A stretch of DNA of 64,000 nucleotides from Firmicutes bacterium ADurb.Bin182. GTDB taxonomy: Bacteria; Bacillota; Clostridia; Christensenellales; CAG-138. Below the pieces are notes generated by a model. The model worked only from the letters and a program-made list of their open reading frames with translations. It made no database searches and had not been told where the DNA came from. The DNA is taken from assembly GCA_002070205.1 (NCBI GenBank), contig MWCU01000035.1, positions 124,001 through 188,000 on the forward strand. The letters are read 5' to 3'. The position numbers were made by a program, and so were the translations under genes. Of this stretch, positions 45,567 to 62,201 are shown in pieces. Positions within the stretch are counted from its first letter, which is position 1. The number at the start of each line of letters is the position of its first letter.

Positions 45567-45581
45567 CGAAAGCATTTGGGA

Positions 45582-45607
45582 AAAGGCATTGCATCGCAAT
45601 GTCTTTT
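45582..45607 (+). repeat. First copy of an exact 26-bp direct repeat; hairpin/terminator after plsY
   Basis: The 26 bases are identical to 45901-45926. The unit is itself a near-perfect inverted repeat: AAAGGCATTGC and GCAATGTCTTT (one G-T pair) around ATC, ending in TTTT, so it can act as a terminator. Confidence 0.85.
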
Positions 45608-45900
45608 GAGACTGTTAAAAAGCTATTCAGGGATTATTAAGGGGCTGGCGGAAATCTTTGATTTCCGCGGGACCCCTTAATTTTCAGATGGCCGTGACGA
45701 ATGTAATCCGTAGAGCAGCATGGTCGACTGATACGTTCCGTCATCAGCGGCATGTACGGTGAAACGGATGAAATCCGTATGGATTTTGTACTTTGCACGC
45801 TTTGTCGCCCGAAAATCTTTGATTTTAGGCAGTCAAAAATCTTGTTTTTGACGACGTGTAGAACTCGAAGAAGTCTATACAGACTTCTTCGACACGCTGT
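45608..45900 (+). ncRNA. Structured non-coding segment between the direct repeats, candidate RNA or small element
   Basis: No credible reading frame. Hairpins, in order: TTAAGGGG/CCCCTTAA enclosing GCGGAAATC/GATTTCCGC (45637-45680); CTGAT/ATCAG near 45727-45746; ACGGAT/ATCCGT near 45764-45778; GAAAATC with GATTTTA inside GCC/GGC near 45807-45830; GTCAAAAA/TTTTTGAC near 45832-45851; CGAAGAAGTCT/AGACTTCTTCG around ATAC near 45866-45891. The word AATCTTTGATTT occurs twice. Whether it is transcribed is unknown; type is my best guess. Confidence 0.4.
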
Positions 45901-45926
45901 AAAGGCATTGCATCGCAATGTCTTTT
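45901..45926 (+). repeat. Second copy of the 26-bp direct repeat; hairpin
   Basis: Identical to 45582-45607 over 26 bases and followed by TTTT-AT. Forms the same 11-bp hairpin. Confidence 0.85.
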
Positions 45927-45930
45927 TTAT

Positions 45931-45950
45931 ATGCAATTGCATGTTTTTTT
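45931..45950 (+). terminator. Palindrome plus T-tract upstream of spoIVA
   Basis: ATGCAATTGCAT (45931-45942) is a perfect palindrome followed by GTTTTTTT. Placed right after the second repeat it gives a double terminator that isolates spoIVA from upstream transcription. Confidence 0.6.
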
Positions 45951-46017
45951 GAGAGTGGACATATATATTTAATGTTATTAAACGTCTGCCTTCAGCTATA
46001 TTAAAGGAGGAGTACCG

Positions 46018-51058: not shown

Positions 51059-53527
51059 ATGAACAAAGAGACATTAAAAATAAGCGGCATGACATGCGCG
51101 GCATGCGCTCAAAGAATAGAGAAAGCAGTCGGTAAAATCGACGGCGTAGCAAGTGCGTCCGTTAATTTCGCCACAGAGAAATTATCCGTTGAATTTGACG
51201 ATCAGAAGGTTTCAAAGGACAGGTTCCGCGAGACTATTGAGAAAATCGGTTACGGAATACAGGAAGAAACCGTTAAAAGAAACGTAACTATTCCCATTGG
51301 CGGAATGACATGCGCCGCATGCGCTCAAAGAATCGAAAAAGCTCTAGGCAAAACGGAAGGCGTATCGCGCGTTTCCGTAAACTTTGCGACGGAGAAAGCG
51401 ACGGTTGAATATGACCCGCAGCGTACAAAGCTTTCCGCTCTCAAAAGCACTATAGAAAAGGCCGGATATAAAGCGCTGGAAATCGAGAAAAAAGCAGCGG
51501 TCGACGAAGATAAGATACGTAAGCAAAAAGAAATCAAAACACTTTGGACCAAGTTCATCGTATCCGCCGTTTTCGGCATCCCGCTTCTTTACCTTGCGAT
51601 GGGTTCCATGATCTGGTGGCTGCCGTTTCCCATCCCGGCATTTCTTGAACCGATGCAGTACCCCCTGACTTACGCTATCGTTCAGATACTGCTGACACTT
51701 CCGATCGTTATAGCCGGACATAAATTTTATTCTGTCGGTTTCAAAGCGTTGATTCAAAGAAGTCCGAATATGGATTCATTGATTGCGATCGGTACGTCCG
51801 CAGCTATCGTTTACAGCCTTTACTCGGTATACCAGATCAGTATCGGGAACTTCGGAGCCGTAGAAGGACTGTATTTCGAAACAGCCGGAGTCATCATAAC
51901 GCTGATATTGCTTGGCAAGTCTTTGGAGGCTGTTTCAAAAAGCAAAACGTCGGATGCTATTAAAAAGCTGATGGGACTTGCGCCGAAAACTGCGATCGTA
52001 ATCCAGGACGGAAAAGAGATCGAACTCCCAATAGACGAAGTAGAGATCGGCGATGTGATCGTTGTGAAACCCGGTGAAAAAATACCGGTCGACGGCGAAG
52101 TACTCGAAGGAAATACATCGATCGATGAATCAATGCTGACAGGCGAAAGCATGCCGATCGATAAAAAGGCCGGTGATAAGGTTTACGCTGCAAGCATCAA
52201 CAAAAACGGATCGATCCGGTTCAAAGCGACAAAAGTAGGCGGAGATACGGCCCTTGCCCAAATCATTAAACTGGTCGAAGACGCGCAGGGTTCCAAAGCG
52301 CCCATCGCTCAGATGGCCGATATCGTTTCAGGGTATTTTGTACCGATCGTATGCGCGATCGCCGTGATCGCGTTCATCGCGTGGATGATCGGAGGCCAGA
52401 CTCTGATATTCAGCCTGACGATTTTCATTGCCGTATTGGTCATCGCATGCCCTTGCGCGCTGGGTCTTGCCACGCCGACTGCCATAATGGTCGGTACGGG
52501 AAAAGGCGCGGAATACGGAATTTTGATAAAGGGCGGGGAAGCCTTGGAGACTGCGCATAAAATCAATACGATCGTATTCGATAAGACCGGCACCATCACG
52601 GAAGGCAAACCCGAGGTAACGGATATCATCACAGCGGAAGGCATTACCGAGGAAAGGCTTCTTCAAATCGCGGCTTCCGCGGAAAAAGGTTCGGAGCATC
52701 CTTTGGGAGAGGCTATCGTTCGGGGAGCGGAAAAAGCGAATTTACAAATGCTGAAACCGGATAAATTTGAGGCGATACCGGGTCACGGTATCGAGGTCGA
52801 GATAAACGGGTCCCACACGCTGATAGGAAACCGGAAGCTTATGGATTTACGAAATATCTCGATGCAGGAGCTTGAAAAGGAATCCGACCGGCTTGCCGGC
52901 GAAGGAAAAACCCCGATGTATATCGCGATAGATAATAGACTGTCCGGCATAATCGCGGTGGCGGACGTCGTAAAGGAAAGCAGCGCAAAAGCCATCAAAA
53001 AGCTTCAATCGATGGGCATCGAGGTCGCGATGATCACGGGTGATAACCGCAAAACCGCGGAAGCTATCGCAAAACAGGTCGGTATCACCAAAGTGCTTGC
53101 CGAGGTGCTCCCGCAGGATAAATCCAACGAGGTCAAAAAACTTCAGGCCGAGGGCAAAAAGGTATCCATGGTGGGCGACGGTATAAACGATGCTCCCGCG
53201 CTTGCTCAGGCGGATATCGGCATCGCGATAGGTTCAGGGACTGACGTCGCCATGGAATCAGCGGATATCGTGCTTATGAGAAGCGACCTTATGGACGTTC
53301 CGACGGCTATCCAGCTTTCAAGAAGCACTATCAGGAACATCAAGCAGAACCTGTTCTGGGCATTTGGGTACAATGTACTCGGGATCCCGATCGCAGCCGG
53401 CGTGTTGTATCTTTTCGGCGGCCCGCTGCTCAACCCGATATTTGCCGCTGCAGCCATGTCCATGAGCTCGGTCTCGGTTCTTACGAACGCGCTGCGGCTG
53501 AAAAGGTTCAAGCCCTATCATGCTTGA
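51059..53527 (+). CDS. copA: Copper-translocating P-type ATPase
   Basis: Cu(I) exporter of the P1B-1 ATPase family, 822 aa. Two N-terminal heavy-metal domains each carry GMTCAACA (Cys13/Cys16 and Cys85/Cys88). Then eight transmembrane helices with the copper-path motif [13 protein letters not shown], phosphorylation site DKTGT, TGES in the actuator domain, [11 protein letters not shown] and the C-terminal [19 protein letters not shown] 51059 is preferred (GAAAGGG about 11 nt upstream); an in-frame ATG at 51023 is possible. It is controlled by the upstream CsoR-box promoter and ends 25 bp before an RseC-like gene. Confidence 0.96.
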
Positions 53528-61479: not shown

Positions 61480-61557
61480 CGGGGTGTAGCGCAGTTCGGC
61501 TAGCGCACGTGCTTTGGGAGCATGGGGCCGGGGGTTCAAATCCCTCCACCCCGACCA
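61480..61557 (+). tRNA. tRNA-Pro (UGG)
   Basis: Acceptor CGGGGTG pairs with CACCCCG, discriminator A, CCA encoded. The anticodon loop TTTGGGA gives anticodon TGG. T-loop TTCAAAT. Confidence 0.95.
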
Positions 61558-61565
61558 ACAACCAA

Positions 61566-61640
61566 GGCCCCTTGGTCAAGCGGTTAAGACACCGCCCTTT
61601 CACGGCGGTAACAGGAGTTCGAGTCTCCTAGGGGTCACCA
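61566..61640 (+). tRNA. tRNA-Glu (UUC)
   Basis: Acceptor GGCCCCT with AGGGGTC (one G-T), ACCA end. Anticodon arm CCGCC-CTTTCAC-GGCGG gives anticodon TTC. T-loop TTCGAGT. Confidence 0.95.
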
Positions 61641-61663
61641 TTTTTCCCCCGTTTGGATTTCGT

Positions 61664-61740
61664 GGGCCTTTAGCTCAGTTGGTCAGAGCGGTCGGCTCAT
61701 AACCGATTGGTCCGGGGTTCGAGTCCCTGAAGGCCCACCA
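61664..61740 (+). tRNA. tRNA-Met (CAU, probably elongator)
   Basis: Acceptor GGGCCTT with AAGGCCC, ACCA end. The anticodon loop CTCATAA gives CAT. The sequence lacks the three G-C pairs of initiator tRNA in the anticodon stem; a tRNA-Ile2 (lysidine) identity is not excluded but less likely. Confidence 0.9.
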
Positions 61741-61750
61741 AACAAAATGT

Positions 61751-61827
61751 GGCCCGGTAGTTCAGTTGGTTAGAATGCCAGCCTGTCACGCTGGAGGTCA
61801 GGGGTTCGAGCCCCCTCCGGGTCGCCA
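61751..61827 (+). tRNA. tRNA-Asp (GUC)
   Basis: Acceptor GGCCCGG with CCGGGTC, GCCA end. The anticodon loop CTGTCAC gives GTC. T-loop TTCGAGC. Confidence 0.95.
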
Positions 61828-61831
61828 TTTT

Positions 61832-61907
61832 GCCTCGGTAGCTCAGCTGGTAGAGCAAGGGACTGAAAATCCCTGTGTCGGTGGTTCAACTCCACTCTGA
61901 GGCACCA
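61832..61907 (+). tRNA. tRNA-Phe (GAA)
   Basis: Acceptor GCCTCGG with CTGAGGC, ACCA end. The anticodon loop CTGAAAA gives GAA. T-loop TTCAACT. Confidence 0.95.
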
Positions 61908-61924
61908 AATTTGCTCCAGCCATT

Positions 61925-62000
61925 GCTGGTGTAGCTCAATTGGCAGAGCAGCTGATTTGTAATCAGCAGGTTGCGGGTTCGAGTCCCATCACCAGCTCCA
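61925..62000 (+). tRNA. tRNA-Thr (UGU)
   Basis: Acceptor GCTGGTG with CACCAGC, TCCA end. The anticodon loop TTTGTAA gives TGT. Confidence 0.95.
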
Positions 62001-62023
62001 TTGACAACCAAATAACTTATCGT

Positions 62024-62108
<85 letters not shown>

Positions 62109-62114
62109 CTCTAA

Positions 62115-62201
62115 GCGGGAATGGCGGAATTGGCAGACGCGCACGGTTCAGGTCCGTGTGCTGGCAACGGCATGCAGGTTCAAGTCCTGTTTCCCGCACC
62201 A
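62115..62201 (+). tRNA. tRNA-Leu (CAG)
   Basis: Acceptor GCGGGAA with TTCCCGC, ACCA end, long variable arm. The anticodon loop TTCAGGT gives CAG. Last gene of the tRNA operon. Confidence 0.95.

Follow-up and report, generated by a model that had tools for sequence, protein, structure and literature searches.

The DNA at 45608–45900 of the window (the whole 64,000-nucleotide stretch that was analyzed) is probably a MITE that is moved in trans by a transposase of the IS1182 type and that joins to the 5′ feet of terminator hairpins in their extruded state. The element is dispersed in its genome, has fixed tips, lies in terminator-like targets, and is flanked in most complete copies by a duplication of the target hairpin, the length of which scales with that of the hairpin. 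We infer the IS1182-type enzyme, the cruciform state of the target, and the preservation of termination.

The Element in the plsY–spoIVA Spacer

The hairpin-rich stretch is hosted by the spacer between plsY and spoIVA, 3′ of the gene of an EngA/Der-type GTPase, and these neighbors have been confirmed with Pfam (EngA/Der-type GTPase, plsY as G3P_acyltransf, and spoIVA). The exact 26-bp direct repeat AAAGGCATTGCATCGCAATGTCTTTT that an earlier note had described is present at both sites listed in Table 1, where it brackets a strongly folding body of 293 bp; with up to three mismatches allowed, its 24-base core occurs only at those two sites in the window, and two matches have been obtained in 0 of 100 shuffles. 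Equally real is the second repeated word pointed out in that note (CGGAAATCTTTGATTT/CGAAAATCTTTGATTT at 45649 and 45810), and the hairpin richness has been borne out by the fold of a 411-nt stretch into many stem-loops at −148.8 kcal/mol (z −8.2), a stability equaled by 0 of 100 shuffles. A terminator-like call has been obtained for the repeat copy at 45901 with its T-run and not for the one at 45582, where there are just four Ts. Elsewhere, the window contains two 116-nt direct repeats (51084–51199 and 51300–51415, 76% alike and 216 nt apart) and eight clustered tRNA genes (61480–62198).

Table 1. Features of the element and its flanks in the plsY–spoIVA spacer (window coordinates).
Feature	Position	Strand	Basis
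Target-site duplication, copy 1; plsY terminator hairpin	45582–45607	+	Exact 26-bp repeat; other element copies have other hairpins here
MITE body, 293 bp, one of 40 genome places	45608–45900	+	Whole-genome BLAST
Left terminal repeat AGACTGTTAAAAAG	45609–45622	+	Aligned copy tips; sister copy L015 used for the match to IS1182-family tips
Nested left hairpin AAGGGG(CTGGCGGAAATC...GATTTCCGC..)CCCCTT	45638–45680	+	Short GGGGTCGCAACCCC form in other copies
Conserved core, three covarying helices	45737–45863	+	Covariance model R1, 85.6 bits (L001:1671-1797); pair counts
Right-end hairpin TCGAAGAAGTCT/AGACTTCTTCGA	45865–45892	+	12-bp perfect inverted repeat; genome pattern matches
Right terminal repeat, − strand reading CAGCGTGTCGAAGAAG	45884–45899	−	IS-tip comparison made with the identical 16 bases of L015
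Target-site duplication, copy 2, then T-run; terminator-like	45901–45926	+	Exact repeat; terminator-like call

Copies in the Genome and Element Ends

A BLAST search with 45567–45960 against the own genome (2.65 Mb, 127 contigs) has given 92 matches, which have been grouped by hand into 40 places, a count in which some copies cut by contig breaks may appear twice. The search for further copies, which the earlier note had named as a check, has thus recovered a short, non-coding body of 293 bp that is dispersed in one genome. On their left side the alignments break off near 45605–45609, and on their right side most of them reach no further than 45900; these boundaries fall between the 26-bp repeats and place the 26-mer outside the repeat family. 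With 40 dispersed places, the idea of a miniature mobile element has held; the 26-bp repeats, which that idea had taken as the ends of the element, have turned out to be a duplicated host terminator that is different at other copies. The element's own ends (AGACTG..../....CGCTG) lie just inside them. The constant left end (AGACTGTCRAAAAA and the following bases) has been found at 12 places with up to three mismatches, and the constant right end, a 12-bp hairpin finishing in CTTCTTCGACACGCTG, has given 35 genome matches at the same tolerance, a count that includes palindromic sites read on both strands; the reversed-pattern control has been 0 in both cases. Across the copies, the terminal inverted repeats (AGACTGTCRAAAAA/CAGCGTGTCGAAGAAG) are imperfect and fixed in position.

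Whole hairpin modules have been found swapped or extended inside the element (L017, L027, and L044 against L007), the interior variants comprise a short GGGGTCGCAACCCC and a nested longer form as well as additional AGTTTGAAATC hairpins, and the body seems to evolve through the gain and loss of palindromes. In some copies, a 31-bp unit (CGACTTATCGACTGATACGTTCCGTCATCAG) runs head-to-tail up to contig ends (G000:C38:5-160, C79:13215-13333, and the ends of L008 and L012), and this array is a minisatellite growing from one element hairpin. Past the left tip, at ∼410 bp in L003 (G000:C71) and at ∼468 bp in L075, an additional and longer copy of the left flank with its hairpin has been observed 3′ of the element, exact over 31 bp (L003) and 45 bp (L075), which suggests larger local duplications at the same terminators.

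A Conserved Core Fold

The interior of the element contains a core of three helices, which has been supported by 18 cores from six genomes; 94.8% of the cells are paired, and both partners have changed in 31 cells (7.5 in shuffles). The covariance search in relatives that the earlier note had called for has been carried out with the model R1, which matches 18 of the 297 genomes of the order and 14 of its 126 genera, other families included. In a model-fitted alignment of 72 hits, some of which are weak self-matches from the opposite strand, both-side changes have been seen in 28 of 29 pairs (319 cells against 68 in shuffles). The sense of a selected structure expressed in that note is therefore supported by an interior fold with covariation across genera. 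None of 15 IS1182 loci has matched R1, and consequently the core belongs to the MITE and not to the IS. A search of the public genome collection with a core DNA pattern has returned 13 stretches, all of them from metagenome-assembled genomes labeled Christensenella sp., Eubacteriales, or Clostridia. A core that is shared between genera raises the question of what a gene-less selfish element needs a conserved fold for. Strand use has also been sought in the bias of G-U against A-C cells and has been dropped, since the ratio, which is 44 to 13 in the 63 distinct rows of the model-fitted set once the terminal pair is set aside, falls in the MAFFT set to 8 to 5 with one pair in A1 excluded and may reflect model bias.

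The strong fold (z −8.2) and the three helices that covary across genera would also suit a structured RNA gene or a cis-regulatory RNA that lies between plsY and spoIVA and is bounded by a terminator on each side. We consider this unlikely, as the body occurs at 40 dispersed places with different terminators at each, and as copies have been found in both orientations to the T-run of the terminator (4 forward, 5 reverse, and 13 unclear among 22). Furthermore, none of 4227 Rfam families has matched the element at the curated gathering score, with sub-threshold matches only, no promoter-like site has been found, and the 8 to 5 ratio leaves no strand signal free of model bias. The gene plsY has been located upstream of spoIVA in one of 29 spoIVA loci of relatives (G003), and the 116-nt spacer of this genome, which is not an alignable site of the same species, lacks the element and contains a single terminator-like hairpin. 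The other reading of the earlier note, here taken as a small RNA of the spoIVA locus alone, finds no support in this spacer and has been rejected on account of the dispersal of the body and of hairpins that differ between copies.

Duplication of the Flanking Hairpin

Among the copies L001–L030, most are flanked by terminator-like hairpins, which differ between copies; the left and right hairpins of a given copy resemble each other. The target hairpins are unrelated in sequence and show no consensus. The duplication has been tested on 26 complete copies, 16 from the own genome with both tips and 10 from relatives with right tips picked by eye, whereby three second readings, one-tip copies, and the left tips L044, L058, and L059, judged to be spurious, have been left out of the own sample. 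Taking the best ungapped direct repeat between the flanks as the score and the 99th percentile of 650 mismatched flank pairs as the control, a flanking repeat above the control has been obtained for 22 of the 26 copies (12/16 own, 10/10 from relatives), and a convincing duplication has not been found in four of the 16 own copies (L009, L014, L019, and L020). The fixed position of the two element tips identifies the direct repeat as a target-site duplication and, by setting both boundaries to within ∼3 bases, makes its length well defined.

In the 21 copies with a measurable hairpin, the duplication is 17–31 bp long and follows the span of the hairpin (Pearson 0.81, p 9e-6; Spearman 0.84; permutation p 1e-4), from which it differs by a mean of −0.5 bp (sd 2.2). 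Matching flanks are often perfect, loop sequences included, and perfect duplications have been recorded for L001 (26 bp), L015 (27 bp), and L075 (26 bp). The hairpin loops of the two sides differ in L002, and the two hairpins of L019 are unequal in length.

Of 61 genomes, 21 contain the exact left-tip pattern, with 46 matches in all, and the reversed pattern has given 11. Among 44 distinct exact left-tip matches with a locus, drawn from all searches, 30 have a hairpin of at least six pairs that ends within 4 nt of the tip; several of the remaining 14 appear to sit in coding sequence. In JAQUTY01, one of the genomes recovered with the core DNA pattern, near-identical bodies have been found in different hairpins, each of them duplicated (L234, L240, and L241, with L240 being the L075 locus). 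Short elements with the same left tip have further been observed in terminator-like hairpins of G057, which belongs to another family of the order (L099, L105, and L112–L116); several of these have a different right end (GACGGCCTA), and the hairpin is duplicated in L099, L112, L113, and L114.

A deletion of the hairpin without duplication, as for IS1272, has not been found at these copies, where the hairpin is duplicated. Nevertheless, the element might replace its hairpin in an IS1272-like manner, with the flanking hairpins arising from recombination between copies or from insertion between two pre-existing hairpins. Such a replacement would be in line with the removal of the target hairpin by IS1272, as given in the available text of two sources (PMC5678879, PMC4923244), with the IS1182 members L139 and L133 that lie between two different hairpins, and with the hairpins of different length in L019. 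It is improbable in view of flanks that match above mismatched pairs in 22 of the 26 complete copies, often perfectly and including the loops.

Transposase Candidates

The IS1182 model NF033551 has detected two genes above its cut-off in 13 genomes chosen for holding element tips or core, one in G011 (with one stop) and one in G025 (intact), and among the 297 genomes of the order nine have reached E 1e-60 or better, seven of them above the cut-off. Neither an intact IS1182 transposase nor an autonomous copy of the element has been found in the own genome, whose 127 contigs are in many cases broken at these repeats; its only IS1182 trace is a C-terminal fragment at the end of a contig, which covers 139 positions of the model and scores 97 bits. 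This fragment (G000:C111:12-422, L119) lies at the contig start and is followed by a near-repeated CACAG(C/T)CTGACGGTTCTTCTGCTTGC segment.

The transposase of G025 has 494 aa, scores 394 bits with NF033551, and carries the Pfam domains DDE_Tnp_1_6, DUF772, and DDE_Tnp_1. Its IS, with tips CAGCTTGTCGAGAAA(G/C), adjoins a terminator-like hairpin, and the tips CAGCTTGTCGAGAAAG match the right tip of the element in 13 of 16 positions. The tips of L015 have been compared with the IS tips of G025, G305, and G035, which has yielded 11–14 identical positions out of 16 in eight comparisons (13 or more in four), an identity equaled by 0–9 of 20000 shuffles. The MITE accordingly shares its tips with ISs of IS1182-type transposases, which have been seen in G025 and G305, with the start of an ORF seen in G035. 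Five hairpins at contig ends of G035 hold a longer element whose ORF start follows a AGACTGTCAAAAAAG tip, and the other end of this element opens four contigs; the ORF start has only ∼14 residues, and its tentative IS1182 label follows the similarity of the tips. Joining of the G035 contigs C16 and C8 by their hairpin, a pairing that is itself inferred, gives an exact 22-bp hairpin duplication, and the loops of two further hairpin pairs are reverse complements and not direct copies, which reflects either a wrong pairing or a non-simple duplication there.

Hairpins have been found at one end or at both of the full IS1182-family members L117, L133, and L139, and in no case is the hairpin the same on the two sides. 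The IS1182 members of G305, G195, and G011 lack an identical hairpin on both sides and thereby argue against a uniform rule. An automatic search for flanking repeats has found none at 14 IS1182 loci, several of which are cut by contig ends or have a misassigned ORF. Direct repeats of 0–60 bp are given for the IS1182 family in ISfinder, and the duplications of the present element fit this range.

On account of its long duplications, an element of the IS1202 type has been the first candidate, with a duplication of fixed length and terminators as a mere sequence preference. The available text on this group indeed gives duplications of 16–28 bp (PMC10132070); however, the tips found here read CAG/AGACTGT and CAG(A/C)..., with TGT 4–5 bases inside instead of an outer TGT...ACA, the duplication varies between 17 and 31 bp within one family and tracks the hairpin, and the intact transposases with matching tips are of the IS1182 family. 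The candidate has been dropped on its tips and on the variable length, and we regard it as very improbable. An IS200/IS605 or REP-like element has been set aside, as duplications would be inconsistent with it.

Proposed Mechanism

According to the preferred reading, an IS1182-family DDE transposase would act in trans on the MITE, and a terminator hairpin extruded as a cruciform would serve as its target. The two 3′ ends of the element would be joined to the 5′ feet of the cruciform, at points that would be adjacent in space and a full hairpin apart along the DNA; gap filling between joining points at this distance would therefore duplicate the whole hairpin. As a hairpin would be left on each side of the insertion, termination would probably be kept, which in turn would explain why many copies are tolerated and why terminators remain functional even though so many of them contain the repeat.

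One may tentatively go further, to a reading that we judge possible and to which we lend a little less than even weight: the transposase may read the shape of the extruded terminator, with the duplication set by the hairpin, the covarying fold may be needed for the transposition cycle, and the terminators on both sides may represent a restored safe harbor. If so, there would be a branch of the IS1182 type with structure-directed integration that duplicates whole hairpins, and the MITE fold, conserved across genera and families of the order, would act as folded donor DNA or as RNA.

Comparison With Known Systems

Group IIC introns insert at intrinsic terminators, after the stem-loop, which resembles the present element, and are unlike it in being RNA-based, much larger, and free of a target duplication. 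With DDE transposases, the number of duplicated target bases is normally fixed. A family with a duplication as long as the target hairpin (17–31 bp) provides direct natural evidence that the shape of the DNA places both strand-transfer sites, and it lends itself to a clean test of whether cruciforms extrude in living cells.

Bacterial MITEs, as portrayed in the available text of PMC10969869, share with the present element the short, non-coding, and dispersed body, the terminal repeats, the target duplication, and a strong RNA fold. The duplication of QMITE2 is 7–9 bp in length, unlike the hairpin-length duplication observed here, and the parts of this source at hand do not name a MITE that targets terminator hairpins with a duplication of hairpin length (PMC10969869). 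Unusually long target duplications are a feature in common with the IS1202 group, for which the accessible portion of PMC10132070 gives TGT...ACA tips and a duplication length characteristic of each IS, with the target not found in that portion.

The closest likeness has been found with IS1272/TnSha1 of Staphylococcus, members of the IS1182 family that target terminator hairpins with partial deletion (PMC4923244). In the available text, these elements use hairpins without a sequence consensus, mostly transcription terminators and in both orientations, and have 16-bp terminal repeats with an IS1182-family transposase, which we count as likenesses (PMC4923244, PMC5678879). In the model of IS1272, the hairpin is lost when the ends are joined to the 3′ feet of the cruciform; with the 5′ feet as joining points, it would be duplicated as a whole (pathway b of the model in Fig 13), for which the text at hand names no example (PMC5678879). 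Unlike IS1272, which deletes or replaces the hairpin without duplication, the present family duplicates the whole hairpin and fits pathway b. In the part of the open-licence literature that was accessible, the duplication of a whole terminator hairpin by a MITE or an IS has not been found described, and a prior mention is possible. The element is therefore ordinary in being a MITE and unusual since its duplication is the hairpin of the target, and the family supplies examples for a pathway that, in the text available, has so far been found only drawn beside IS1272.
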